Assembly (NCBI GenBank): GCA_017465475.1
Contig: JAFTWC010000029.1
Span: forward strand, 1-64,000
DNA length: 64,000 nt
Origin: Lachnospiraceae bacterium
GTDB taxonomy: Bacteria > Bacillota > Clostridia > Lachnospirales > Lachnospiraceae
Direction: 5' to 3'
Shown: positions 3,522-58,006 of the stretch, in pieces
Layout of the letters: every line of letters starts with the position of its first letter
How positions within the stretch are numbered: the stretch's first letter is position 1
Program-made: the position numbers and the translations under genes
The notes under the pieces: model-generated
What the model saw: the letters and a program-made list of their open reading frames with translations, nothing else
Databases searched by the model: none
What the model was told of the DNA's origin: nothing

Positions 3522-5039
3522 TTATTCTTTCCAGTCTTCTTTCCGGATGATTTTTCCGACAAACAAAAGAAGAATATAAAACAAGCAGTAGAGGCCACAG
3601 ATAAGCAGTAAAAGCAGTAAAGCGGAAAACGTTGTTTGGTTTTGTAAAATGTGGTACAACCATACAAATAGTTGGGCAGGAAGAAATGCGAATAAGGCAG
3701 GAAGCACCAACCACTGTGAAACCGGTGGGAAGGCTTTGCAATATTTTATGACAAGAGCCGCATCGAACAAGGTGCTGACCAGTTGACTGATCAGGAGACT
3801 GATTAATACACCGTAGATACCTGTTTTCGGGACCACGAATACAATGATGGCTAAACGCACCAAAAGTCCGGCTACGGTGGTAAAAAAGGACAGATGAGGC
3901 TTTCCGAGACCGTTGATTACACTGCCTAACGTCGTGGAAAGATATAACAGCGGACAAAGGGGAGATAAAATTCGAATGTAGTCTCCCGCCAGAGGATTAT
4001 GGTAGACCGCGGTCCCGATGTCACGTCCGAAATAAAAAAACACGGCAGTAGAGAACAAACCAATCACGACACTGTATTTTACGGCATTTCCCACGCATTG
4101 TTGCAGACGCGGGCGGTTTTTCTCATCCAGATTTTCCGAAACGGCCGGAAGTAATAGGACAGAAAGCGCATTCGGTATGGCAGATGGAAACAGGATAAAA
4201 GGAATTGCCATACCGTTTAGGATGCCGTAAAGGCTTAATGCGTCAGAGTTCGTCAGACCGCTTAGGCGCAGCATTCCCGGGATGAAAACTGCCTCTACGC
4301 TATGTAAGAGATTGATGACCAAACGGTTTAGGGATAAGGGCATGGAAAGACTAAGTAAGCGTTTGGTAAGGCCGGTGGTACTACAAGGAGATGCGTGTCG
4401 AAGCAGCTTTGTCCGATGCATACGATAAGCAATACAGTTAAAGAGATTGGAGACCACCTCTCCCAGAACGAGACCGATTACAGCAGCAAGACATCTGCTT
4501 TCTTCGTTTGAGAATGTAGGAAGGGTAACGAGATAAAGTACCAGCCCGATGCGTACAAGTTGTTCCAAAAGCTGAGTGAAGGCAGGAACGGCAGTCGTTT
4601 TACATCCGATATAATATCCGTTGATACAGGCGGTTACGGCGCAAAAAGGAAATACAAGGGAAAGAATACGGAGAGAGTCGGTGGCACGAACTTCCATGAG
4701 AAAGTATTTAGCACAAGGTTCAGCTCCTGCATATACGAGGACAGACAAGGTCAGTGCGATACCGAAGGCAAGGAGCATGGAGCGGCGCATCAGACAAGAA
4801 GTCAAAGTAACATTTCCCCGGCTGTTTTCTTCAGCCACCAGCTTGGATACGGCAGTTTGGATGCCGGAAGCATAGAGGGTATAGCAAATGCCGTAAACAG
4901 GAAAGACAAGCTGATAGATGCCCAGATATTCCGCTCCAAGCGCATCCGCAAGACAGATACGGTAATAAAAACCCAGAACTCGGGTAATCAGTCCGGTTAT
5001 GGTAAGGAGGATGGTTCCTTTCAAAATGGCATTTTTCAA
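3522..5039 (-). CDS. SpoVB/MurJ-like polysaccharide flippase
   Basis: About 505 residues, highly hydrophobic with some 12-14 membrane helices, of the MOP-superfamily polysaccharide/lipid exporter type. The N-terminus (LKGTILLTITGLITRVLGF) closely resembles stage V sporulation protein B. Family role: flipping lipid-linked cell-wall or spore-cortex precursors. I chose a TTG start at 5039 because GGAGG lies seven bases upstream and the resulting N-terminus fits the family. The ATG six codons earlier (5057) has no ribosome site. Whether it serves sporulation or general envelope synthesis cannot be told from sequence; no other spo genes are adjacent. Confidence 0.85.
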   Translation of the reverse strand: MKNAILKGTILLTITGLITRVLGFYYRICLADALGAEYLGIYQLVFPVYGICYTLYASGIQTAVSKLVAEENSRGNVTLTSCLMRRSMLLAFGIALTLSVLVYAGAEPCAKYFLMEVRATDSLRILSLVFPFCAVTACINGYYIGCKTTAVPAFTQLLEQLVRIGLVLYLVTLPTFSNEESRCLAAVIGLVLGEVVSNLFNCIAYRMHRTKLLRHASPCSTTGLTKRLLSLSMPLSLNRLVINLLHSVEAVFIPGMLRLSGLTNSDALSLYGILNGMAIPFILFPSAIPNALSVLLLPAVSENLDEKNRPRLQQCVGNAVKYSVVIGLFSTAVFFYFGRDIGTAVYHNPLAGDYIRILSPLCPLLYLSTTLGSVINGLGKPHLSFFTTVAGLLVRLAIIVFVVPKTGIYGVLISLLISQLVSTLFDAALVIKYCKAFPPVSQWLVLPALFAFLPAQLFVWLYHILQNQTTFSALLLLLLICGLYCLFYILLLFVGKIIRKEDWKE

Positions 5040-5147
5040 GAGGGTGCCTCCGGGCATTTTTTATTAGCTTATGATTGGAATGACAGAAACAGAACGAAAA
5101 CAAGGAATTTGAATAAAATAAGGATATAGCAGATTGAGGATAATGGC

Positions 5148-6338
5148 ATGGATAAGAGAATAATATATTTAGATCATGCGGCGACAACGCCTATGTATGA
5201 AGAAGCTGTGGAAGCCATGCTTCCCTATTTTACGGAACGGTTCGGAAACCCGTCCGGTCAGTACGGTTTGGCAAATGAGGGGAAGCGTGCCGTAGAGACT
5301 GCAAGAAAGCAGATTGCGGCAACCATAGGAGCCCGTCCGGAGGAGATTTATTTTACCGGAAGCGGTACGGAGGCTGATAACTGGGCCATTAAGATGGCGG
5401 CGAAGGCTTACGGGGACAAGGGACATCATATTATTACCACGAAAATTGAGCATCACGCGGTACTCCATACTTGCGAAGCTTTGGAGCGGGAAGGATACCG
5501 GGTGACCTATCTGACACCGGATGAAGAGGGGCTTATTTCGAAGGAAAGTTTGCTCAGGGTGCTGACACCGGATACGATTTTGGTATCTGTTATGGCGGCA
5601 AATAATGAAATCGGAACTATTGAACCCATAGAAGAATTGGCAAAAATCGTAACGGAACGGGGCATCTTGTTTCATACCGATGCGGTACAGGCATACGGGA
5701 AACTCCCGCTTTCGGTGGAAGAGGGAACCATAGCCATGCTGTCCGCCAGCGCTCACAAAATCGGCGGACCGAAAGGGGTTGGCTTTTTGTATGTAAGACG
5801 GGATGTGAGGTTGCAATCCTTTTTACACGGTGGGGCGCAGGAAAAGCGTCGTCGTGCAGGAACGGAGAATGTGCCGGGAATCGTAGGGTTTGCAAAAGCG
5901 GCGGAGGTAACCTTTGGGGCAAGGAAAGAGACGGAAGCAAGAGAGCGGGAACTTCGAGATTATTTTATGAAACGGGTTCTTTCTGAAATTCCGTATGTAA
6001 GAGTCACCGGTTCGGTAAGGGAACGGCTTTCCGGGCACGTGAGCTTTTGTTTTCAGTTTATTGAAGGAGAAACCGTCCTGATTATGTTGGATTCCGACGG
6101 CATTTGCGGATCCAGCGGTTCGGCTTGTACCACGGGACAGACAGAACCGTCCCATGTACTCACGGCAATCGGACTTCCGGAGGATGTGGCCCACGGAGCG
6201 CTCAGGTTTACGTTGGGAAGGGAGACCACAAAGGAAGAGATTGATTTTACGATAGAACGGATGAAGGAAGTTATCGGGAAAGTAAGGGCCATGTCTCCTT
6301 ATTACGTAAAGTTTGCGGCAAAGGATGGGAAAGAATAG
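5148..6338 (+). CDS. Cysteine desulfurase (NifS/IscS family)
   Basis: A 396-residue PLP-dependent aminotransferase-fold enzyme that removes sulfur from cysteine to form a protein persulfide. The N-terminus (YLDHAATTP) is diagnostic. The PLP lysine is Lys204 in SAHKIGGPKG, and the sulfur-accepting cysteine is Cys327 in GSSGSACTTG. The gene sits 80 bases upstream of mnmA on the same strand, so its likely job is to supply sulfur for tRNA thiolation. It may also feed Fe-S assembly, which the window's radical SAM enzymes would need. No IscU/SufU scaffold gene is nearby. Confidence 0.93.
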   Translation: MDKRIIYLDHAATTPMYEEAVEAMLPYFTERFGNPSGQYGLANEGKRAVETARKQIAATIGARPEEIYFTGSGTEADNWAIKMAAKAYGDKGHHIITTKIEHHAVLHTCEALEREGYRVTYLTPDEEGLISKESLLRVLTPDTILVSVMAANNEIGTIEPIEELAKIVTERGILFHTDAVQAYGKLPLSVEEGTIAMLSASAHKIGGPKGVGFLYVRRDVRLQSFLHGGAQEKRRRAGTENVPGIVGFAKAAEVTFGARKETEARERELRDYFMKRVLSEIPYVRVTGSVRERLSGHVSFCFQFIEGETVLIMLDSDGICGSSGSACTTGQTEPSHVLTAIGLPEDVAHGALRFTLGRETTKEEIDFTIERMKEVIGKVRAMSPYYVKFAAKDGKE

Positions 6339-14144: not shown

Positions 14145-14810
14145 ATGAAAACAATCTTAATCGTAGATGATGATTTACATATCGGAAATATGGTGGAAGA
14201 GGTGTTGACAAAGGAAGGCTACAGAGCGCTGAGAGCCTATTCCGGTACGGAAGCGGTGCTTTTGTTATCGCAGAAAAAGCCGGATTTGGTTTTACTTGAT
14301 TTGATGCTTCCGGGACTTTCCGGGGAAGAAGTACTCCAAAAGATAAAAGGAATTCCGGTGATTGTTGTCAGTGCAAAAGTTGATGTGGATGACAAAGTAG
14401 ATTTACTGCTTGGAGGCGCGGCGGATTATATAACGAAGCCATTTCATACAAAGGAATTACTTGCACGAATAGCGGTACAGCTTCGAAAAGAGCAGGAATC
14501 CGGAAAATACTCGGTACTTACCTTCGAAGAGATTAGGATGGAGACCGATACCCACAGGGTAACGGTAGATGAGACAGAACTTAAGCTTACCCGAACGGAA
14601 TACGCTGTTTTGAAAATTCTTTTGATGAATCCGACTCAGGTAATAACAAAATCCGCGTTGTTAGACAGGATAATGCAGGAGACACCGGACTGTACGGAGA
14701 CTTCGTTGAAAATGCATGTAAGCAATTTACGTAAAAAGTTAAAAGAGGGAAAGGACAAGGATTATATTGAAGCGGTTTGGGGCATTGGTTTTAAATTAAA
14801 ATCGCAGTAA
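14145..14810 (+). CDS. OmpR/PhoB-family response regulator
   Basis: 221 residues. The receiver domain (1-115) has the acidic pocket VDDD, the phosphorylated Asp52 in LVLLDLMLPG and Lys in ITKPF. A winged-helix DNA-binding domain follows (about 125-220, with AVWGIGFKL at the end). Its kinase partner is probably the histidine kinase at 16675, and its probable target is the direct-repeat array at 14812, just before the ABC genes. The order regulator-ATPase-permease-kinase is the usual layout of self-controlled ABC systems in Firmicutes. Confidence 0.92.
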   Translation: MKTILIVDDDLHIGNMVEEVLTKEGYRALRAYSGTEAVLLLSQKKPDLVLLDLMLPGLSGEEVLQKIKGIPVIVVSAKVDVDDKVDLLLGGAADYITKPFHTKELLARIAVQLRKEQESGKYSVLTFEEIRMETDTHRVTVDETELKLTRTEYAVLKILLMNPTQVITKSALLDRIMQETPDCTETSLKMHVSNLRKKLKEGKDKDYIEAVWGIGFKLKSQ

Positions 14811-14811
14811 A

Positions 14812-14863
14812 TCTTTACCGTATCTTTACTGTTTTCTTTACCGGTTTCTTTACCTTTCTTTAG
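14812..14863 (+). promoter_or_regulatory. Phased direct-repeat operator for the response regulator
   Basis: TCTTTAC occurs at 14812, 14823, 14835 and 14847, and TCTTTAG at 14857: five boxes spaced 10-12 bases, one per helical turn. This is the arrangement bound by OmpR/PhoB-type regulators. A possible -10, TAGAAT (14864-14869), follows directly, so the last boxes occupy the -35 region, which points to activation. The array sits between the regulator gene and the ABC ATPase gene. Binding is inferred. Confidence 0.75.
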
Positions 14864-14897
14864 TAGAATGATAACATCAAAAAAGAGGAGGGTATTT

Positions 14898-15812
14898 ATG
14901 GAATATGTTTTGACAACCGATGAGCTTTGCAAAAATTACAAATATTGTAAAGCACTAAACAGACTGTCCATGCATGTACCGAAGGGTGCTATCTATGGTT
15001 TGGTCGGTCGAAACGGTGCCGGAAAGACAACATTAATTCGTTTGATTTGCGGATTACAGGAACCTACATCCGGAGAGTACACGTTGTTCGGAAGGAAGAA
15101 TACCGAAAAACAGGTGGTAGCATCTCGGAGAAGAATGGGAGCGGTGATAGAAACACCGGCGGTGTATACGGATATGACAGCGGTGGAGAATTTAAAGCAG
15201 CAGTACCGGATTCTGGGGCTTCCGTCATTTGAAGGAATCAAAGAGATTTTAGAGTTGGTAGGTCTTGCGGACACAGGAAAAAAGAAAGCAAAGCATTTTT
15301 CTTTCGGAATGAAACAGCGTTTGGGAATTGCAATTGCACTTTGCGGAGATCCGGATTTTCTGGTGTTGGACGAACCGGCTAACGGCTTGGATCCGCAGGG
15401 AATTATTGATATCAGAGAACTGATATTGAAGTTAAACAAAGAGAGACAGGTTACGGTTTTAGTTTCCAGTCATATTTTGGAAGAACTGTCAAAGTTTGCA
15501 ACACATTACGGTTTTGTAGACGGAGGACGAATCGTAAAAGAGTTAAGTGCAAAAGAACTGGAAGCATCCTGTAGAAAGTGTATGCATGTGGAAGTCAGTG
15601 ATGTAAGGATTTTGGCGAGAGTGTTGGATGCAAAAGGGCTTGAATATAGCATTTGGTCAGAAAATGCAGTGGATATTTATGCACAAATAGGAGTAACGGA
15701 GCTTGTAGGGGAACTGTTAACGGAAGGGTGTGAGCTTTACAGTATCACAGAAAAGGATGAGTCACTGGAAAGCATTTATGTTAGTCTGGTAGGAGGTGGT
15801 GGTGATGCGTAA
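14898..15812 (+). CDS. ABC transporter ATP-binding protein
   Basis: About 304 residues. Walker A GRNGAGKTT, signature FSFGMKQR and Walker B FLVLDEPANGLDP are all present, with a switch region SSHIL. The extra C-terminal domain of about 80 residues is typical of bacitracin/lantibiotic-type exporters (BcrA-like). It energises the permease encoded just downstream, whose start overlaps its end by 8 bases. ATG 14898 has AGAGGAGG upstream. The likely role is export of, or resistance to, an antimicrobial peptide or similar envelope compound; this is inferred from the gene order. Confidence 0.9.
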   Translation: MEYVLTTDELCKNYKYCKALNRLSMHVPKGAIYGLVGRNGAGKTTLIRLICGLQEPTSGEYTLFGRKNTEKQVVASRRRMGAVIETPAVYTDMTAVENLKQQYRILGLPSFEGIKEILELVGLADTGKKKAKHFSFGMKQRLGIAIALCGDPDFLVLDEPANGLDPQGIIDIRELILKLNKERQVTVLVSSHILEELSKFATHYGFVDGGRIVKELSAKELEASCRKCMHVEVSDVRILARVLDAKGLEYSIWSENAVDIYAQIGVTELVGELLTEGCELYSITEKDESLESIYVSLVGGGGDA

Positions 15813-16626
15813 ATTACTTTCTGCAAACTTTTCACGCTTGTTTCACAGTAAAGTGTTCTGGTGTTGTTGGGCAGTTATGATTAGTCTGACGGCAATTCCT
15901 GTGTTATACTTTAATAGATTGTGGAATAGTGCGCAGGTTAGGTTTTTGTATGGCGGAGACGAACTGCTTCCGTTTGTATCGGCGGTACTTATCGGTCTGT
16001 TTCTGGGGACGGATTACAGTAACAGAACCATACGGAATAAACTTGTTGCAGGACATGTACGTCGCGATATTTACGGCTCGAATTGGGTGGTGTGCACGGT
16101 TTCTGTCTTGATATTTCATGTGACTTCTTTAGCTATGGTGCTGTTTCTTGAATATCTGTTATCCGGAAGTTTTTATCGTTTGCCGAAGAACTTGTTTGCC
16201 GGAATTTTAGTAAGCACATTTGCGGTAGTGGCAGTTTCGACCCTGCTTTTGTTTGTTTCCATGCTGATTCAAAGCAGAGCAATCGGAGTTGTGGTAACCA
16301 TTATTACGGGGCTTTTTCTGTATGGCAGTGGTTCAAAGTTGAGGGGGGCTTTACTACGGCCGGAGTATATTTCTGAATATATATCAGACGGTAAAGGGAA
16401 TTTGCTGTTTGACGGAAATGTGTTGAATCCGAATTATGTGAGTGGGGTAAGGAGAGACATATATGAGTTCCTTGTGGATATTCACCCGGTGGGACAGATT
16501 TTGCAATTTGATGAATGTACGGAACTGCCGAGAGCATGGGTTCTTTTCCCGGTGTATTCTGTTATTTTTACGATTGTTATTTTTTTCGTCGGCTACTACT
16601 TGTTCCGCAGGAAGGATATAAAGTAA
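15805..16626 (+). CDS. ABC-2-type transporter permease
   Basis: About 273 residues with some six hydrophobic helices and the segment LFLGTDYSNRTIRNKLVAGH, which is characteristic of ABC-2 permeases of the BcrB/LanE kind. It forms the membrane channel for the preceding ATPase. The start (ATG 15805, AGGAGG eight bases upstream) lies inside the end of the ATPase gene, implying translational coupling. The ligand is unknown. Confidence 0.87.
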   Translation: MRKLLSANFSRLFHSKVFWCCWAVMISLTAIPVLYFNRLWNSAQVRFLYGGDELLPFVSAVLIGLFLGTDYSNRTIRNKLVAGHVRRDIYGSNWVVCTVSVLIFHVTSLAMVLFLEYLLSGSFYRLPKNLFAGILVSTFAVVAVSTLLLFVSMLIQSRAIGVVVTIITGLFLYGSGSKLRGALLRPEYISEYISDGKGNLLFDGNVLNPNYVSGVRRDIYEFLVDIHPVGQILQFDECTELPRAWVLFPVYSVIFTIVIFFVGYYLFRRKDIK

Positions 16627-16674
16627 GGTACTTTGTGTAAGGTGGGAAAAACCGGAAAACGGATAGGAGAGAAA

Positions 16675-17568
16675 ATGATGGAGATTCGGTTATGGGTCGT
16701 AATCGGCATTATGGCAGTGGTGATTGTCGGCTTGCTTATAAAACTTCATAGTGTACGTAAGTCAACAAGAGAAATTACCGATGCCTTTGCAAAACGGCTC
16801 GTAACCGACACCAATATCCTCATTGATGTTGCCGGTAGGGACAGGCATGTAAGACAGTTGGCTGCGGAACTGAATGTGCAGTTACGGAAGCTACGGGAGC
16901 TGCGTCACCGCTATGTACAGGGGGATGTGGAATTAAAGAATGCGGTGACGAACATTTCCCATGATTTACGGACGCCTCTCACAGCAATCCAAGGCTACCT
17001 TGATTTACTTTGTCAGGAGGATTTGTCGGAGGACGGGATTCGTTATGTAGAAATGATAAAAAACCGTACGGAGCATATGAACAATCTTACAGAGGAGTTG
17101 TTTCGGTATTCTGTGCTGTTATCGGAAGAAAAAGAACTTGCCAAGAAGCCGGTGGTGTTAAACGCAGCGTTGGAAGAGAGCGTGGCAGGATTTTATGCAG
17201 TGCTTACGGAACGAAAAATCCAACCGGAGATTCGTATGCCGGAAGAAAAAGTGGTACGGCTTTTAGATGTTTCCGCATTATCCAGAGTTTTTTCCAATTT
17301 ATTGAACAATGCCTTAAAATACAGCGACGGTGATTTATTGATTGAATTGACGAAGGAAGGAGAGATTATCTTTTCCAACAGGGCAAAAGAATTAGATGAG
17401 GTACAGGTAGGAAAGCTTTTTGACCGTTTTTATACCGTGGAAGCTGCAAGAAAGTCCACAGGTCTGGGACTTTCGATTGCAAAGACGTTGGTGGAGCAGA
17501 TGGAGGGGAGTATTGCAGCGAACTATGAAGAGGGAAGGATTAAAATCATTATTTTTTTCCCGGAGTAA
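16675..17568 (+). CDS. Sensor histidine kinase
   Basis: About 297 residues. One N-terminal membrane helix (5-23) is followed by a short linker, a HisKA domain with the phosphorylated His96 in NISHDLRTPLTA, and a HATPase domain with LNNALKYS and STGLGLSIAKTL. There is almost no extracytoplasmic part, so it may sense the state of the ABC transporter rather than a free ligand, as known for intramembrane-sensing kinases. It ends the regulator-ATPase-permease-kinase cluster. ATG 16675 is preceded by AGGAGAGAAA. Confidence 0.9.
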   Translation: MMEIRLWVVIGIMAVVIVGLLIKLHSVRKSTREITDAFAKRLVTDTNILIDVAGRDRHVRQLAAELNVQLRKLRELRHRYVQGDVELKNAVTNISHDLRTPLTAIQGYLDLLCQEDLSEDGIRYVEMIKNRTEHMNNLTEELFRYSVLLSEEKELAKKPVVLNAALEESVAGFYAVLTERKIQPEIRMPEEKVVRLLDVSALSRVFSNLLNNALKYSDGDLLIELTKEGEIIFSNRAKELDEVQVGKLFDRFYTVEAARKSTGLGLSIAKTLVEQMEGSIAANYEEGRIKIIIFFPE

Positions 17569-17575
17569 TCCATAC

Positions 17576-17604
17576 TTGACAAGGGGATGACAACGTGTTA
17601 AGAT
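17576..17604 (+). promoter_or_regulatory. Promoter of the leader RNA before the MutS2-like gene
   Basis: TTGACA (17576-17581), a 17-base spacer and TAAGAT (17599-17604), close to consensus. The expected transcript starts near 17611 and runs into the hairpins at 17800 and 17926 before it reaches the gene at 18100. Confidence 0.75.
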
Positions 17605-17650
17605 AGCAACGTAAATACATTACATTTTAATTTTCAGAAAAGAGGATTTT

Positions 17651-17680
17651 ATGAATAGCATTGTAGGAAGAACAAGATAG
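17651..17680 (+). CDS. Candidate 9-residue leader peptide
   Basis: ATG followed by eight codons and TAG, reading MNSIVGRTR. AGAGGA lies 4 bases before the ATG. The start region can be hidden in the long-range pairing with 17768-17782. Such short frames sense ribosome stalling in antibiotic-inducible leaders; that role here is inferred. Confidence 0.45.
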   Translation: MNSIVGRTR

Positions 17681-17799
17681 GACACCGACAACGAAACAGT
17701 TGCGAGGATTGACTTTTTACGCTAGAAGTCTGCCCTTTGGTATCTGCCTTACATATGCTTCATAAATCTATTCATAGAATTCGTTATGACGAGATTGTG

Positions 17800-17827
17800 A
17801 GCAGAACTGTATGGTTCTGCTTTTTTT
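17800..17827 (+). terminator. First intrinsic terminator of the leader
   Basis: AGCAGAAC (17800-17807) and GTTCTGCT (17814-17821) pair perfectly around a 6-base loop, followed by seven T. It lies 270 bases upstream of the MutS2-like gene and would stop most transcripts from 17576. Confidence 0.85.
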
Positions 17828-17847
17828 CGAGTAGGCAAAGTGAGCAT
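17828..17847 (+). repeat. Dispersed 20-nt motif, copy 2
   Basis: CGAGTAGGCAAAGTGAGCAT, one mismatch to the copy at 44144. It begins right after the T-run of the first leader terminator and is followed by a GCAAGTGTACTTGTGC hairpin and a segment (CGATATGCGAACACGC) resembling part of the repeat at the left edge of the window. Confidence 0.7.
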
Positions 17848-17925
17848 AGAGACGCTGCGCAAGTGTACTTGTGCAAATGCCGATATGCGAACACGCTCGC
17901 TTGAACTATCTTTAAAGAACGATGA

Positions 17926-17979
17926 AAAGACCATGGATTTATCAGCTTTTTAAGGCAAAATCCATGGTTTTTCTTTTTG
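17926..17979 (+). terminator. Second intrinsic terminator of the leader
   Basis: CCATGGATTT (17931-17940) pairs with AAATCCATGG (17958-17967), extended by A-U pairs, then TTTTTCTTTTT. This is a second barrier between the promoter at 17576 and the gene at 18100. A smaller hairpin (CTATCCGT/ACGGATGGATAG) lies at about 17985-18006. Confidence 0.75.
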
Positions 17980-18099
17980 CCAAACTATCCGTGAACGGAT
18001 GGATAGAGCGAGTCATGGATGATACTTCGGTGTTCTTTTCGGTGAAAAATGGCGTACAAGATAAAACGGTAGAAAAGAAAGAATACAAGGAGTATCAAA

Positions 18100-20085
18100 A
18101 TGAATCGAGAAGAACAGTTATTGGAATTTGACAAAATAAAGGAGCTTTGGGCGGAGTACGCCCTGACGGAGGCAGCTAAGGAACAGATACGGGAGACAAA
18201 GCCGATTCTATCTGAAACGGAGCTTTTGGTAAAGCAACGGGAAACAACCCAGGGAAAGCGGATGATAGAACTGTGCGGAACTCCGCCCCTTGCCTCCATA
18301 CAAGGACTTGCAGAAATTGTGGATATTGCCGGAAAAGGAGACTGTCTTTCTGTGGAACAGTTGCTTACGGTACAGATATCCCTCACCATGGTAGCAAGAC
18401 TTAAAAAGTATTTGTGTCAGGGAAAGCAGTACGAGATTTCTCTTGCCTGGTACGAAGAAAACTTAGAGCCTTTGGAGGAACTGAGGGAGAGTATTTATAC
18501 CCAGATTGTAAACGAACAGGTGGCGGACAATGCTTCGAAGCTGTTAAAATCACTGCGAACAGAGATTGCGCAGACAGAAAGTCGTATGCGGGAGAAGGCG
18601 GATGCGGTGATGCGCGCCAATAAGGATTGTATGTCAGATAGCTTCAGTACCATGCGGAACGGTCGGATTTGTGTACCGGTAAAGAAAGAGTGCAAGTTTC
18701 GGATTTCGGGAAGCGTCATTGATAAGTCCTCCACGGGAAATACATTGTTTATCGAACCGACAGCCTGTGCAAATCATTACGCAGAGCTTCAGAGTCTTTC
18801 TATGGACGAGGAAAACGAAGTACGAAGAATTCTGTATGAATTGACCGTGCAGGTGGATCGTCATGGCGAGGCAATGAGAGAGAATATCAAGTACATTGAG
18901 AAGTTGGATTACATTTTCTCGAAAGGAAAGTTAAGTTTTCTCTATGACGGTGCGGAGCCGGAGATTGTAACCAATCGAGAGATTAAACTTACGGATGCCA
19001 GACACCCGTTAATGAAAAAAGAAATCTGTGTACCGCTTCAGTTTCAAATCGGAAACGGCGTAAACGGTATCGTGATTACGGGACCGAATACCGGAGGAAA
19101 GACGGTAGCCTTAAAAACAGTGGCATTAAACTGTATGTTGGCACAGTGTGGTCTTCATGTGTCTTGTAAGGAAGCAAGAGTCTGTATGAACAGCAATTAC
19201 CTGTGTGATATCGGTGACGGGCAGAATCTTTCGGAAAATCTGTCTACTTTTTCGGCACATATTACCAACGTGTTAGACATTTTACGCAGAGTCAATGAAC
19301 AGAGTTTGGTGCTGATGGATGAGCTTGGTTCCGGTACGGATCCCCTTGAGGGGATGGGCATTGCGGTGGCGATTTTGGAGGAACTGAAAAATAGCGGAGC
19401 GCTGTTTCTTGTGACAACCCATTATCCGGAGGTTAAGGTATATGCAGAACAAACGGAAGGCATCGTAAATGCCCGTATGACCTTTGATAAGGAGAATTTA
19501 AAACCGACCTATCAAATGGTCATCGGTGAGGCAGGAGAAAGTTGCGCCTTTCATATTGCAAGAAGGCTTGGAATGCCGTCCGGAATGTTAAAGAGAGCAG
19601 CGGAAGCGGCATATGGAGAACGGAGGTCGGAGTGTATATCGGTGTCGGGTGCGACGATGGATGTGAAATATCATGTTGAGGAGAATACACAGGAAAAGAT
19701 ACAAAAGGAAATTTCCCCACGCATCGTAAAGAAAAAGAATCCGGCATCGAAGAAAGCGAAACAATGCGAGTACCGAATCGGTGACAGCGTCATGATTTAT
19801 CCGGACAAGAAAATCGGCATTGTATGTCAGCCTGAAAATGAAAAGGGTGTGTTACAAGTTCAGATGCCGAATAAGAAGATTTGGATTAACCATAAACGGG
19901 TGAAACTTCATGTGGCAGCGGAGGAACTGTATCCGGAGGACTATGATTTTTCTATTATCTTTGACAGTGTGGAAACGAGAAAACTGCGGCATGACATGGA
20001 GCGGAAACATGTGGAAGGTGTGGCGTTGGAACTTACCGGAGCAGAGGCACAGCGGGCGGAGATGCTTGGAAAGAAGAACAGATAA
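18100..20085 (+). CDS. MutS2-like ATPase lacking the Smr domain
   Basis: 661 residues. The N-terminal region (LLEFDKIKELWAEYALTEAAKEQI) and the clamp/lever coiled coils match MutS2. The ATPase has Walker A GPNTGGKTVALKT near residue 328 and Walker B LVLMDELGSGTDP near 406. A KOW-like segment (GDSVMIYPDKKIGIV) follows around 565-620, then the protein ends without the C-terminal Smr nuclease domain of MutS2 (usual length about 785). In Bacillus, MutS2 acts on collided ribosomes and in recombination control; this shorter form may keep the ribosome or DNA clamp function without cleavage. The leader upstream suggests conditional expression. Confidence 0.85.
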   Translation: MNREEQLLEFDKIKELWAEYALTEAAKEQIRETKPILSETELLVKQRETTQGKRMIELCGTPPLASIQGLAEIVDIAGKGDCLSVEQLLTVQISLTMVARLKKYLCQGKQYEISLAWYEENLEPLEELRESIYTQIVNEQVADNASKLLKSLRTEIAQTESRMREKADAVMRANKDCMSDSFSTMRNGRICVPVKKECKFRISGSVIDKSSTGNTLFIEPTACANHYAELQSLSMDEENEVRRILYELTVQVDRHGEAMRENIKYIEKLDYIFSKGKLSFLYDGAEPEIVTNREIKLTDARHPLMKKEICVPLQFQIGNGVNGIVITGPNTGGKTVALKTVALNCMLAQCGLHVSCKEARVCMNSNYLCDIGDGQNLSENLSTFSAHITNVLDILRRVNEQSLVLMDELGSGTDPLEGMGIAVAILEELKNSGALFLVTTHYPEVKVYAEQTEGIVNARMTFDKENLKPTYQMVIGEAGESCAFHIARRLGMPSGMLKRAAEAAYGERRSECISVSGATMDVKYHVEENTQEKIQKEISPRIVKKKNPASKKAKQCEYRIGDSVMIYPDKKIGIVCQPENEKGVLQVQMPNKKIWINHKRVKLHVAAEELYPEDYDFSIIFDSVETRKLRHDMERKHVEGVALELTGAEAQRAEMLGKKNR

Positions 20086-20123
20086 AAATGATACGATGAA
20101 ATAAAATAACGGAGGTGTTTAAA

Positions 20124-20786
20124 ATGAATCATATTGAAAAGTATAAAAAGTATTTTACAAAGGAGTATTTGATGGGACCGAATTCCTTTCGGCTGCTAGA
20201 TGAGTTAATTCAAAGAAATCCTGAGGACACGAAGTATAAAAGAACGTTGGATTTGGGATGTGGTTTCGCATTGACGTCCCTATTTATTGCGCAGGAAACA
20301 AACGCGCAAAGTGTTGTAGCCTTTGATTTGTGGGTTCCTGCATCGGAAAATTACAGGAGAATAAAGGATAGCAATCTTGAGGATACCATTATTCCGATTC
20401 ACGGAGATGCTCTTTCGATGCCCTTTGCACAGGAGTATTTCGATGCAATTATCAGCGTGGATTCCTATCATTATTTTGGCTGTAAGAAGGGTGTGTTTGC
20501 GGAAAAAATATTGCCGTTCGTAAAAAAGGAAGGCTATGTGATGATTACGATTCCGGGCTTAAAGGAAGAACCAAAGGGAGAAATAAAAGAACTCTTCGCC
20601 ACATGGGCCGAAGGGGATGATGCAGAGTTGTTTCAAACGGTAGATTGGTGGAAAGCTCTTTTAGAAAAAGAATGCGGTGACCGGTGTGACATTACGGTAA
20701 AAGAGGCAGACTGCTTTACTGTAGCTTGGCAGGAGTGGTTTGAGACAGGACACGAATTCGGGATTCGGGATAAAGCGTTTTTATAG
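20124..20786 (+). CDS. SAM-dependent methyltransferase
   Basis: About 220 residues of the class I (Rossmann) methyltransferase type. Motif I is LDLGCGFALTSLF (about residues 37-49), with the acidic end of strand two in VAFDLW and a DALSMPF segment typical of motif III. The substrate is unknown. ATG 20124 follows GGAGGTG. It stands between the MutS2-like gene and the ABC half-exporters and may belong with the latter, but no motif shows a small-molecule target. Confidence 0.82.
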   Translation: MNHIEKYKKYFTKEYLMGPNSFRLLDELIQRNPEDTKYKRTLDLGCGFALTSLFIAQETNAQSVVAFDLWVPASENYRRIKDSNLEDTIIPIHGDALSMPFAQEYFDAIISVDSYHYFGCKKGVFAEKILPFVKKEGYVMITIPGLKEEPKGEIKELFATWAEGDDAELFQTVDWWKALLEKECGDRCDITVKEADCFTVAWQEWFETGHEFGIRDKAFL

Positions 20787-20852: not shown

Positions 20853-22703
20853 ATGAAAAAAGAGAAAGAGGAAAACACTTTGCAGGTGACACGGTACGGA
20901 ATCGGTTCCAATACATGTTTTCTGTTTAAGGAAACGATGAAATGTTATCCGTTTTTGTTGGTGTTATGCTTTTTATTAATTGTGATAGGAATTGTAATTC
21001 CTGTAATTACTACGTTTTTGCCCAAGATTGTGATTGAACACATCGAGGAGAGAGCGGCAATGAAAGAGGTTCTGACAGTTACGTTAATCGGAACAGGACT
21101 ATTGGCTTTGTGTGCCGGAGGTAAAGTATTCTTTGAAAAGCTGTTGTATTTTCAGAAGTTTCGCATGAATACTCACTATACGGAAATGGTGGCCATAAAA
21201 GGAATGACAGCGGATTATTGTCACCAGGAAACAGAACGGTTCCGCAAATTACATACGGAGAGTGCAGGGGCATGCAACGGAAATTATTCTCCCATGATTC
21301 AGGTGTACGATGTGGGAATCGGTCTTTTTACAAGTGCTTTGGGATTCGGGTTATACTTTGGAATTCTGGCACGTTTACATATAGGACTGGTGCTGTTTTT
21401 GATTGTGGTGACGGTGTGTAGTTGTCTGCTGAATCATAAGGTAATCCGGTGGACAGAAAAGCACCGGGAGGAAAAGGTGCGGTATCAGCAGAGAACAGAC
21501 TATTTGACAAGTGTGTCCGGGGATATAAAGTCAGCAAAGGATATTCGGTTGTACCGGATGAACCGGTGGCTGTCGGATGTGTACCGTAAGAACGTAGAGG
21601 GCTTAAACGGATGGTATCGCAGATATACAAAGGCTGTGTTAGGTGTGGCGGCAGGAGATGCAGGATTGTCTCTGGTACGGGAAGTGGTTGCTTATCTGTA
21701 TTTGTTGTATCTTGTTTTAACGAAAGATATGGCTGTTGCGGATTTTGTGTTGTACTTCGGAGTGATTACCGGATTCTCTGCCTGGTTGTCCGGATTGTTC
21801 GGTCAGGTAACGGCACTTTCCCGTATCAGCAGTTCCGTAGATTATGTACGTACTTTTTTAGCGTATCCGGATACCTACACGAGAGAAGGAGGATGCGAAC
21901 TTCCGAAAGATTCGGAGGGACCGAAAGAACTGTCCCTTTGCAATGTAAGTTATCGCTATGAGGGAGCAAAGCAGGATACCTTGTCCGGTCTTACGTTGAC
22001 CGTTGCTCCCGGTGAACATCTGGCTATTGTCGGATTAAACGGTGCGGGAAAGACCACCCTTGTAAAGCTTTTGTGCGGGCTTACCGATTCGACGGAAGGT
22101 TTTGTCCGTTATAACGGAGTAGATGTGAAAGCATATAACAGAGAGGCTTACTACGGATTGTTTTCTGCGGTGTTTCAACAATTCTCCCTGCTGCCGGTTA
22201 CTTTCGCAGAAGCAGTGGCTGAAGATGAGCCGGGGAAGATTGACAGAAATAAGGTGGAAGCGTGTTTGAAAACCGCCGGACTATGGGAAAAAATCGGGTC
22301 TCTTTCAAAGGGCATGGACAGCGAATACAGCAGAGCGGTGAATGATGAAGGAACGGAGCTTTCCGGCGGTCAGGTGCAGAAATTATTGTTGGCAAGAGCC
22401 CTGTACCGAAATGCACCGTTTATGGTACTGGATGAGCCTACAGCTGCATTGGATCCGATTGCGGAAAGTAATTTATATGAAATGTACCATGAAGTGATGA
22501 AGGACTGCTCTACGGTGTTTATTTCTCATCGTTTGGCATCCACCCGGTTTTGCGACCGTATTGTACTGATGGAGGACGGGAAGATTATCGAGGAAGGAAC
22601 TCATACAGAGCTTCTTGCAAAACAAGGGCGGTATTTTGAACTGTACGAGACTCAGGCGAAGTATTATAGGGAGCATGCGGAAGAAGGAGGTGTTGCAGAA
22701 TGA
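20853..22703 (+). CDS. ABC exporter half-transporter A
   Basis: 616 residues. A membrane domain of about six helices (residues 30-325) is fused to an ATPase with Walker A GLNGAGKTT, signature LSGGQVQK, Walker B FMVLDEPTAALDP and the switch histidine in ISHRLAS. Family role: export of lipids, peptides or drugs. The next gene encodes a second half-transporter and overlaps this one by 4 bases, so the two very likely form a heterodimer. The substrate is not evident. The adjacent methyltransferase might hint at a modified product, but this is weak. Confidence 0.9.
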   Translation: MKKEKEENTLQVTRYGIGSNTCFLFKETMKCYPFLLVLCFLLIVIGIVIPVITTFLPKIVIEHIEERAAMKEVLTVTLIGTGLLALCAGGKVFFEKLLYFQKFRMNTHYTEMVAIKGMTADYCHQETERFRKLHTESAGACNGNYSPMIQVYDVGIGLFTSALGFGLYFGILARLHIGLVLFLIVVTVCSCLLNHKVIRWTEKHREEKVRYQQRTDYLTSVSGDIKSAKDIRLYRMNRWLSDVYRKNVEGLNGWYRRYTKAVLGVAAGDAGLSLVREVVAYLYLLYLVLTKDMAVADFVLYFGVITGFSAWLSGLFGQVTALSRISSSVDYVRTFLAYPDTYTREGGCELPKDSEGPKELSLCNVSYRYEGAKQDTLSGLTLTVAPGEHLAIVGLNGAGKTTLVKLLCGLTDSTEGFVRYNGVDVKAYNREAYYGLFSAVFQQFSLLPVTFAEAVAEDEPGKIDRNKVEACLKTAGLWEKIGSLSKGMDSEYSRAVNDEGTELSGGQVQKLLLARALYRNAPFMVLDEPTAALDPIAESNLYEMYHEVMKDCSTVFISHRLASTRFCDRIVLMEDGKIIEEGTHTELLAKQGRYFELYETQAKYYREHAEEGGVAE

Positions 22704-24568
22704 AAGACAGAATTACCATAAAGGAACGGGTGAAAATCACCGGCCGCGGTATCGGAATTTTACGAAAGTATTGTCCGGGGCTGGCAGGCGGGAAAGCAGT
22801 ATCGGCATTGATTGCGGCGATACAACCGTTACTTTCTGTGTGGCTTTCGGCTAAAATCATTAATGAACTGGCAGGAGCACGACGGACAACCTATCTGTTG
22901 ACATATGTGGCAGCGGTGGTACTTTGCAATTTTCTTCTGCTTCTTATGAAAAGTATGGTAGACCGGGTGACGGAAGAAAAGGAAGCCCAAATGTGGAACT
23001 TTTTCGGAAAGGTGTTTGCCGACAAATCCATGACCATGGATTATGCTGATTTAGAGGATGTTAGGGTGTTACAGAAAAAGCAGGAGGCATCGGAAAATCT
23101 GTTTATGTTCGGAAACGGGCTGGGACAGCTTGTATGGGGGATAAACAGTCTGGTGAACGCAACGGCAAGTATTGTACTTTCTTTATCGCTTACCGTAACC
23201 TTGTTTTTCACGGATACCGGCAACGGTTGGATGGATTCTCCCCTTTGGATTGTGGGAATCGGGGGTTGCGTGATCGTGGGAGGCATTGCAAATGCAAATG
23301 CGACACGAAAGGAAAACTCTGTATTTGAAACCTGGTGTAAAGAGACTGTATGGTTTAACCGGGCATTCATGTTTTTCGGGCATGAACTTGCGAAATCCCC
23401 GGAGCGTGCAAAGGATGTAAGAATTTATAGTCAGCATAAAGCGGCAACCAGAGCATTTGCTGAGATGAGAAAGAGAGATGAGGCTGTGGGAGGTTACCTG
23501 CGTGTTATGGCCACCTATCCGGCACTGGCAGCGGTAGTGGTGGGTATCGGTACCGTAGTATGTTGGGTGTTTGTGGTGCTAAAGGCTTCCTTGGGTGCCT
23601 TTGGTGTGGGAAGTATTGTCCAGTATATCGGAGCGTTGGGGAAACTTTCCACCGGTGTACAGGATATGATGTTTGTGGTGGCGGATAATGAGGTGTATTG
23701 CAGACATTTGAAAGGTTTGTACGAGTATCTGGATATTCCGAACCGTAAAGAAGAAGGAACGCGGACCCTGGCCCCGGATGTTTTCGGCGACGGAAACGAT
23801 GGACACGAAGCGGATTATGAAATCGAGTTTTGCAATGTCAGTTTCCGGTATCCGGGTGCAGAAGAATACTCTTTACGCAATCTTTCCCTTAAGTTTAAGA
23901 TAGGAGAGAGACTGGCAATCGTTGGGAAAAACGGTTCGGGCAAAACTACCTTTATCAAGCTGTTATGCAGACTGTACGATCCGACAGAGGGAGAAATCCG
24001 GTTAAACGGTGTGGATATCAGAGAGTATGCGTACGAAGAATATTTGCGCATCTTTTCCGTGGTATTTCAGGACTTCAAGCTGTTTTCCTTCTCTTTGGGA
24101 CAAAATGTGGCTACAGACATGGAATACGACAGGGAGAAAGCAGAGAAGTGTCTTATAAAAGCCGGATTTACAGAACGGTTAAAAGCAATGCCTAACGGTT
24201 TGGATACTGCTATGTATAAGGATTTTGAATCGGAGGGGGTGGAGATTTCCGGTGGCGAGGCGCAGAAAGTAGCACTGGCACGGGCCTTATATAAAGACGC
24301 ACCGATCGTTGTATTGGATGAACCGACGGCAGCCCTGGACCCGATTGCAGAAGCGGAGGTTTATACGAAGTTTAATGAGTTAATCGGCGAGAAAACAGCT
24401 ATCTATATCAGTCATCGGTTATCCTCCTGTAAGTTCTGTGATGAAATTGCAGTGTTTGACGAGGGAACGGTGGTACAGAGAGGTGCCCATGAGGAATTAT
24501 TACGGGAAGAAGATGGGCTGTACCATAAGTTGTGGACAGCACAGGCGCAGTATTATGAAGCGGGGTAG
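22700..24568 (+). CDS. ABC exporter half-transporter B
   Basis: 622 residues with the same membrane-plus-ATPase layout as its upstream partner. Walker A is GKNGSGKTT, the signature ISGGEAQK, Walker B IVVLDEPTAALDP and the switch histidine is in ISHRLSS. All catalytic motifs look intact, so both ATP sites of the heterodimer may be active, although its LSGGQ signature is altered. The ATGA overlap with gene A indicates coupled translation. Substrate unknown. Confidence 0.9.
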   Translation: MKDRITIKERVKITGRGIGILRKYCPGLAGGKAVSALIAAIQPLLSVWLSAKIINELAGARRTTYLLTYVAAVVLCNFLLLLMKSMVDRVTEEKEAQMWNFFGKVFADKSMTMDYADLEDVRVLQKKQEASENLFMFGNGLGQLVWGINSLVNATASIVLSLSLTVTLFFTDTGNGWMDSPLWIVGIGGCVIVGGIANANATRKENSVFETWCKETVWFNRAFMFFGHELAKSPERAKDVRIYSQHKAATRAFAEMRKRDEAVGGYLRVMATYPALAAVVVGIGTVVCWVFVVLKASLGAFGVGSIVQYIGALGKLSTGVQDMMFVVADNEVYCRHLKGLYEYLDIPNRKEEGTRTLAPDVFGDGNDGHEADYEIEFCNVSFRYPGAEEYSLRNLSLKFKIGERLAIVGKNGSGKTTFIKLLCRLYDPTEGEIRLNGVDIREYAYEEYLRIFSVVFQDFKLFSFSLGQNVATDMEYDREKAEKCLIKAGFTERLKAMPNGLDTAMYKDFESEGVEISGGEAQKVALARALYKDAPIVVLDEPTAALDPIAEAEVYTKFNELIGEKTAIYISHRLSSCKFCDEIAVFDEGTVVQRGAHEELLREEDGLYHKLWTAQAQYYEAG

Positions 24569-44139: not shown

Positions 44140-44143
44140 GCTT

Positions 44144-44163
44144 CGTGTAGGCAAAGTGAGCAT
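44144..44163 (+). repeat. Dispersed 20-nt motif, copy 3
   Basis: CGTGTAGGCAAAGTGAGCAT, starting 5 bases after the efp stop codon and 4 bases before the terminator stem. Confidence 0.75.
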
Positions 44164-44167
44164 ATGG

Positions 44168-57923: not shown

Positions 57924-58006
57924 TGCGGATGGTGGGACTTGAACCCACACGATCGTGAAACCGGCAGATTTTGAGTCTGCTGCGTCTGCCATTCCGCCAC
58001 ATCCGC
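57924..58006 (-). tRNA. tRNA-Leu (anticodon CAA)
   Basis: An 83-nt minus-strand cloverleaf. The acceptor stem is GCGGATG/CATCCGC with discriminator A, and the anticodon stem GCAGA/TCTGC holds the loop CTCAAAA, giving anticodon CAA for UUG. A long variable arm (class II) is followed by the T arm GTGGGTTCAAGTCCCAC. CCA is not encoded. The D-loop region reads GGCGGAATGGCAGACGC. Confidence 0.95.

Follow-up and report, generated by a model that had tools for sequence, protein, structure and literature searches.

The MutS2-like gene at 18100-20085 of the stretch of Lachnospiraceae DNA analysed here (64,000 nucleotides, hereafter the window) follows a leader that we consider likely to be a ribosome-controlled attenuator, in which an early stall on a short upstream ORF (uORF) would allow read-through into a MutS2 paralogue lacking a recognisable SMR domain, the product of which most likely splits or rescues ribosomes. 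An earlier note, made from the window's sequence, had compared this leader with those of ribosome-targeting antibiotic-resistance genes. The comparison holds for the uORF, its pairing partner and the terminators, which recur in many genera, and the leader is attenuator-like in most of our folding tests, but not in all of them.

Organization of the locus

The genome holding the window comprises 3.07 Mb in 81 contigs (coded G000, with the window on contig C41). The leader and the genes that follow it lie on the plus strand. A sigma-70 type promoter is found at 17576-17604 (TTGACA-17-TAAGAT, with TG before the -10 element); its description as near-consensus in the earlier note is accurate, as it agrees with 10 of 12 consensus positions and ranks top of the 10 promoter-like sites in 16500-20500, where 7.2 are expected from shuffles. 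It is the only plus-strand promoter-like site between 17321 and 18718. The note had regarded a main promoter after 17980 as incompatible with its proposal, and no plus-strand promoter-like site occurs from 17980 to the gene. Promoters matching at least 10 of 12 positions are present no more than 100 nt upstream in 41 of 47 aligned leaders, compared to 3% of shuffled upstream sequences (a 48th leader was too short and was left out).

Downstream of the promoter, the Shine-Dalgarno sequence AAGAGGA (17640-17646) precedes the proposed 9-codon frame, MNSIVGRTR* (17651-17680), which is present as described and has counterparts in the leaders of relatives. The uORF is followed by a small hairpin, P2 (CAAC..GTTG, 17689-17702), which is a covarying helix of the aligned leaders, and by a second hairpin predicted by folding, GACTTTTTACGCTAGAAGTC (17711-17730), with a conserved TGCCC after it; AGTCTGCCC, at this hairpin and TGCCC, is conserved in the leader alignment. 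Next is a segment that we call the R element (17743-17783), which pairing, covariation and folding models identify as a potential partner of either the uORF start region or the 5' arms of the terminators.

Two intrinsic terminators are predicted between the uORF and the gene. Terminator 1 (T1; 17799-17822), found by terminator scan and fold energy, was called perfect in the earlier note and merits the term: it has a stem of 10 pairs, a loop of 4, a fold energy of -12.8 kcal/mol, and is followed by U5 ending at 17827. The second terminator that had been reported is likewise present by fold energy (T2; 17926-17972, -18.8 kcal/mol, 104 nt beyond T1); it is absent from the list of our terminator scan, which allowed only loops of 3-8. 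The sequence TGTGAGCAGA (17796-17805) overlaps the 5' arm of T1 and is predicted to form antiterminator 1 with TCTGCCTTACA (17743-17753), while the T2 5' arm GGATTTATCAGC (17935-17946) is predicted to form antiterminator 2 with GCTTCATAAATC (17757-17768). Counterparts of T1 and T2 were assigned in 32 and 38, respectively, of 48 aligned leaders. The T1 loop (CTGTATGG or near) recurs in many loci despite changes in the stem, which is GCATG in relatives and GAGCAGAAC in the window's genus. The region between the terminators (17820-17896) contains a dispersed repeat. Parts of this region are matched elsewhere in the genome at 36 places with E<=10 (21 with E<=0.01), most often across a core of approximately 30 nt just after T1; one such match lies inside the window at 44142-44164.

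The Shine-Dalgarno sequence AAGGAG (18087-18092) precedes the MutS2-like gene, which encodes 661 amino acids. After a 29-nt gap comes a SAM-dependent methyltransferase gene (20115-20786), perhaps in one operon with it, and then the two halves of an ABC exporter (20853-22703 and 22700-24568), which overlap by 4 nt; the methyltransferase and the exporter halves were assigned by family matches. The upstream neighbours (14145-17568) encode a response regulator, an ABC-2 type transporter and a histidine kinase. The ATPase of this transporter is nearest to lantibiotic-protection ABC proteins and the kinase is nearest to VanS-type kinases, each scoring below the respective cut-off.

Conservation and covariation of the leader

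Searching with the MutS2-like protein yielded 60 loci with relatives. We aligned 14 leaders of other genera, named the structure by hand and built the covariance model R1, which then served for realignment. RNAalifold found no pairs in the first MAFFT alignment, probably because the variable hairpins misalign. At E<=1, R1 has a match upstream of 47 of the 60 related genes, and at E<=0.01 upstream of 43; among the 46 loci outside the training set, 29 match at E<=0.01. The leader in the window has an E-value of 0.006, and those of five relatives of the same genus range from 1.6e-5 to 2.1e-3. Thirteen loci have no R1 match at E<=1 (L022, L023, L028, L034, L039, L049, L057, L060, L064, L065, L069, L070 and L074); five of these have less than 300 nt upstream on the contig, and L022 and L034 show the leader by eye.

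The earlier note had proposed a covariation analysis of the leader in related genomes, and its outcome favours the proposed structure. Among 48 aligned leaders, both-side changes occur in 26 of 35 pairs (16.1 in shuffled alignments), and the covariation score is 0.245 versus 0.156 for shuffled alignments, with none of 500 shuffles as high; the alignment (A3) was fitted to the R1 structure and so leans towards it. Paired cells amount to 85.8%, versus 78.1% in shuffled alignments, and slid structures reach 35-44%. The inner helix between the uORF and R has both-side changes in 6 of 6 pairs, whereas the outer helix has them in only 3 of 10; in the latter the commonest pair is found in 25 to 42 of the 48 leaders, and one position is unpaired in 19. 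In relatives, P2 has the form TTGCAA..TTGCAA spanning the uORF stop, with both-side changes in 4 of 6 pairs. No Rfam 15 covariance model matches the leader at its gathering score (the best weak match is sbrA, with 22.6 bits against a gathering score of 45), and a T-box or other described leader was rejected on this ground. In the window as a whole, a minus-strand tRNA (57924-58006) is the one sequence that reaches the gathering score of an Rfam model.

The earlier note would have given up its proposal had the short frame proved unconserved. Instead, a uORF is present in all 75 leaders read, 48 from alignment A3 and 27 from the genome survey described below; these were picked by a model favouring a start codon at that place and are not wholly independent, and they contain 65 distinct uORF sequences. 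By a lenient criterion (GGA, GAG or AGG no more than 16 nt before the uORF), a ribosome site is likewise kept in 75 of 75. In relatives the uORF mostly reads ML[S/I]V(V/I)VMEKxAK*; 12 codons is the commonest length (42 of 75), and nine uORFs have 6 codons (e.g., MLSVVM*). At codon 4 (GTN) the third base is the least conserved, as in coding sequence, while at codon 3 (Ile, Ser, Asn, Thr or Arg) the second base varies most, as RNA pairing predicts. The uORF may be under both RNA and peptide constraint. We found no proven arrest motif in it.

Linkage of the leader to one clade of genes

In a survey of the family that covered 299 genomes (nearly one for each genus), 34 genomes gave a single R1 match each at E<=0.001. 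Under the stricter thresholds and filters of these genome searches, the window's own leader is not listed, and 34 is therefore a lower bound. In 29 of the 34, a MutS2-like gene lies downstream on the same strand, either directly next or with another gene in between, an ABC exporter in G211 and an acetyltransferase in G097. In two (G214 and G168) the downstream region runs off the contig, and in the three with no MutS2-like gene in the stretch examined, the leader is followed by an acetyltransferase (G163 and G198) or an ABC-2 exporter (G195). The MutS2-like gene itself is found in 60 of the 299 genomes at E<=1e-105, after removal of one of 61 matches (G270), a canonical MutS2. Leader and gene occur together in 32 genomes, the leader alone in 2, the gene alone in 28 and neither in 237 (Fisher 4e-24). 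From the sequences, then, the parts of the leader, their conservation and covariation, and their linkage to this gene clade are evident. A further leader copy is found in G039 (L107, 1501-1650) ahead of an ABC-2 exporter; the frame preceding it we take to resemble part of a methionyl-tRNA synthetase gene. In L038 an in-frame stop divides the MutS2-like frame (3992-5974) into two parts, and the leader scores well.

Within approximately 4 kb of the gene, a methyltransferase family is found in 10 of 61 loci, and two acetyltransferase families occur in 5 and 3 loci, respectively; ABC exporter halves are present in 7 loci and an ABC-2 system in 4. The majority of the remaining neighbours are not common to the loci. 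In L019, an acetyltransferase occupies the slot that holds the methyltransferase in the window, L015, L016 and L018. This complement of neighbours would suit a drug-response operon, without proving one.

A MutS2-like protein without an SMR domain

The earlier note had described the downstream gene as MutS2-like, which is correct, but its product has no recognisable SMR domain. The core and ATPase of the protein are recognised by TIGR01069 (MutS2; 545.7 bits against a cut-off of 400), with residues 3-505 aligned and the profile covered only to position 512 of 790. Its family matches include Pfam MutS_V and NCBIfam mutS2, KamC and mutS; the HflX family is not among its profile matches. We considered KamC, a MutS-like reactivase ATPase, and discarded it because the score of 216 bits falls short of the cut-off (300). 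A profile alignment with 12 canonical MutS2 proteins covers the core, the ATPase, a shortened linker and a KOW-like segment, and ends at position 689 of 795, before the SMR domain. Pfam Smr is recognised at E<=0.1 in none of 30 clade members and in 12 of 12 canonical proteins. The same counts were obtained for Pfam MSSS, the MutS2 SH3/KOW family, at E<=0.1 (0 of 30 versus 12 of 12); the KOW-like stretch GDSVMIYPDKKIGIVC is covered by the profile-profile alignment without an MSSS match, indicating that this segment has diverged and is identified by the profile alignment. In a tree of these 30 and 12 rows, the Smr-less proteins group together and separately from canonical MutS2 (support 100/100), and they share a conserved C-terminal tail, ELYPEDYDFSIIFDSV.

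The window's genome also encodes a canonical MutS2 (on C10), with 36% identity to the MutS2-like protein. The earlier note had extended the action of Bacillus MutS2 on collided ribosomes to this gene; because the gene belongs to the Smr-less clade and a canonical copy is present in the same genome, that action cannot simply be carried over. As reported for B. subtilis MutS2, the KOW and SMR domains recruit the protein to collided ribosomes, the KOW domain binds uS10, and ATPase mutants lose splitting; mutation of Walker B confers erythromycin sensitivity, which is only modest in KOW and SMR mutants (PMC10897456). Given these domain roles, it is plausible that the Smr-less paralogue is a splitter with altered recognition.

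Folding models of a predicted switch

The 225-nt leader folds at -58.2 kcal/mol, compared to a shuffled mean of -43.8 (z -3.6), and none of 200 shuffles folds as low. The earlier note had also claimed that the ribosome site and start codon of the uORF can pair over 15 positions with a segment ahead of T1, and this pairing exists: GGATTTTATGAATAG (17644-17658) is complementary to CTATTCATAGAATTC (17768-17782) when G-U pairs are allowed. None of 1000 dinucleotide shuffles of the leader downstream of the uORF reaches a helix of that length, and 11 of 1000 equal or better it by duplex energy. A second register, pairing the uORF with TCTGCCTTACATATGCTTCATAAATC (17743-17768), is predicted at -19.4 kcal/mol, versus -17.1 for the 15-position register. 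It is the stronger of the two in the window and its four nearest relatives, and it is the part common to other genera.

In models of the window's transcript through T1, a free uORF gives approximately 24 expected uORF:R pairs, 9.0 pairs in T1 and 3.0 between R and T1. A ribosome footprint masking the uORF start changes these to 2.1, 3.7 and 9.7, respectively, and a ribosome at codon 6 to 0.1, 6.3 and 8.4. With a ribosome at the stop codon, T1 stays formed (9.6 pairs, with 0.2 for R:T1). Only early stalls are thus predicted to switch T1, which the mask at the start opens and the one at the stop codon leaves formed. As long as the transcript lacks the 3' arm of T1, masking makes little difference (R:T1 pairs 9.4 for a free uORF, 11.4 for a masked one). 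In a transcript ending before the 3' arm of T2, R:T2 pairing rises from 0.3 with a free uORF to 13.3 with a masked one; once complete, T2 forms whether the uORF is masked or free, and control at T2 would therefore have to be kinetic.

Similar behaviour is predicted across loci. With the uORF start masked, a gain exceeding 0.5 pairs is predicted for R:T1 in 30 of 32 loci (means 2.3 to 9.1) and for R:T2 in 35 of 38 (means 1.9 to 9.3), and the masked pairing exceeds that with shuffled arms (p 7e-5 for T1 and 5e-7 for T2). A control mask gives means of only 2.7 for T1 and 2.3 for T2, a slight rise (p 0.01 and 0.002). The exceptions for T2, seen with the shorter cut, all belong to the window's genus and are the window itself (0.6 to 1.0), L016 and L019; the outcome of folding depends on the point at which the transcript is cut. 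By prediction only, then, the leader contains a mutually exclusive anti-antiterminator and antiterminator, and a switch between uORF:R and R:terminator states is predicted.

The fit of each R to the terminators of its own locus was assessed by permutation. For T2, R scores -9.82 against its own 5' arm and -8.54 against those from elsewhere (p<=0.0004, n=32), with p 0.0002 when near-duplicates are kept and 0.011 with other window choices in the test, although T2 was assigned or filtered manually in nine loci (L033, L038, L040, L046, L055, L058, L062, L073 and L087), which may favour this result. As a control, R was also scored against the T2 3' arm, with p 0.012 in one run and 0.18 in another. 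For T1, three permutation runs gave p 0.037, 0.08 and 0.88, and coevolution of R and T1 is not established; T1 is very uniform, leaving the test with little power. Six near-duplicates had been dropped from the tests giving p<=0.0004 and 0.011 for T2 and 0.08 and 0.88 for T1. Nor did a direct test show significant mimicry of the uORF sequence by the T2 arm (p 0.26).

A working model could be as follows. In unstressed cells a ribosome would clear the 9-codon uORF fast, its ribosome site and first codons would pair with R, and polymerase would stop at T1 or, failing that, at T2. A ribosome-targeting antibiotic, or another early block of translation, would hold a ribosome at the first uORF codons. 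With the uORF strand covered in this way, R would be left to pair with the 5' arm of T1 and, further on, that of T2, and antiterminated transcription would enter the gene. Its product, the Smr-less MutS2 paralogue, would most likely split or rescue stalled ribosomes in an ATP-driven manner, and the methyltransferase and ABC exporters would come next. That stalling is the signal and that the protein acts on ribosomes we infer from VmlR, HflXr and MutS2.

Alternative explanations

Many uORFs in relatives open with consecutive Leu, Ile and Val codons (e.g., MLIVIV), raising the possibility of an amino-acid attenuator that stalls when charged branched-chain tRNAs are short; masking of the uORF would act identically in the folding models. 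We regard this as highly improbable, as the genes downstream encode MutS2-like proteins, methyltransferases, acetyltransferases and ABC exporters and none serves amino-acid synthesis, while codon 3 can be Ile, Ser, Asn, Thr or Arg and the window's uORF contains just one Ile and one Val. It is also quite improbable that the uORF is incidental and the tandem terminators just limit expression, as a constitutive brake, or that the leader transcript is a trans-acting small RNA. Both terminators are strong in isolation, and complete T2 forms at equilibrium regardless of the uORF, as such a brake would predict; against this stand the presence of the uORF in every leader read, the covarying helices, the fit of R to its cognate T2 arm, and the linkage of the leader to one gene clade.

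A third alternative keeps the attenuator and changes its output: the protein could act on nucleic acids, in recombination or repair, rather than on ribosomes. It is a MutS-family ATPase, and older work on MutS2 reports DNA activities (PMC3335848, PMC4739419). We consider this unlikely, since the leader and the neighbouring genes suggest ribosome-acting drugs, and the KOW-like segment, though without a Pfam match, aligns with the canonical MutS2 KOW domain, which is described as binding uS10 in B. subtilis (PMC10897456). An early-stall attenuator leading to a ribosome-acting MutS2 paralogue is thus the reading that we prefer.

Relation to known systems

The nearest parallel is HflXr, a duplicated ribosome splitter under an attenuator. 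As described for Listeria monocytogenes, this second splitter copy, with another copy elsewhere in the genome, is controlled by rli80, an attenuator with a short ORF, an anti-antiterminator, an antiterminator and a terminator (PMC6310831). The two systems differ in that HflX is a GTPase with GTP-dependent splitting (PMC6310831), whereas the protein here is a MutS2-derived ATPase; in that the HflXr ORF encodes 14 amino acids containing RLR (PMC6310831), compared to mostly ML[S/I]V.. here; and in that the present leader has two tandem terminators predicted to share one R element. The vmlR leader of Bacillus subtilis resembles ours in having a uORF within the anti-antiterminator helix, such that an early stalled ribosome permits the antiterminator; according to the same report, it differs in its uORF of 3 codons, its single terminator, a helix that hides the ribosome site of the gene, and an ABCF effector (PMC9226507). 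Leaders through which ribosomes control an ABC exporter or ABCF protein have also been reported in Firmicutes for bmrCD (PMC4191407) and cplR (PMC10201436). These leaders and their effectors differ from the present ones, as it is usually a MutS2-like gene that stands closest to the leader here. Compared to canonical B. subtilis MutS2, loss of which is reported to cause sensitivity to chloramphenicol, tetracycline and erythromycin (PMC10897456), the N-terminal core and ATPase align and the KOW domain does so less securely; the window's clade differs in its absent SMR domain, shorter linker, own C-terminal tail and separate position in the tree.

The attenuator logic would thus be a known one; what appears new is the effector clade and the presence of two terminators that a single R element is predicted to control. 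In the open-licence literature, as judged by titles and the starts of abstracts and with subscription papers mostly outside the scope, we found no description of an Smr-less MutS2 with such a leader. With more doubt than confidence, we put forward a further proposal: the Smr-less clade could be a dedicated antibiotic-inducible family of ribosome-splitting resistance proteins, the second after HflXr, which would act on single, early-stalled ribosomes, having lost the SMR domain, which contributes to the recognition of collisions. One leader family would then drive a small regulon, consisting of this protein, a methyltransferase or acetyltransferase, and ABC exporters, in approximately a fifth of the family's genera.

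Which further factors split stalled ribosomes has been raised as a question for B. subtilis (PMC11633108), and the Smr-less clade provides a testable prediction in this regard. More broadly, a widespread MutS2 paralogue, present in 60 of 299 genomes of the family, is tied to a conserved, predicted RNA switch of the kind found with ribosome-protection genes, which suggests an intrinsic resistance route in gut commensals.
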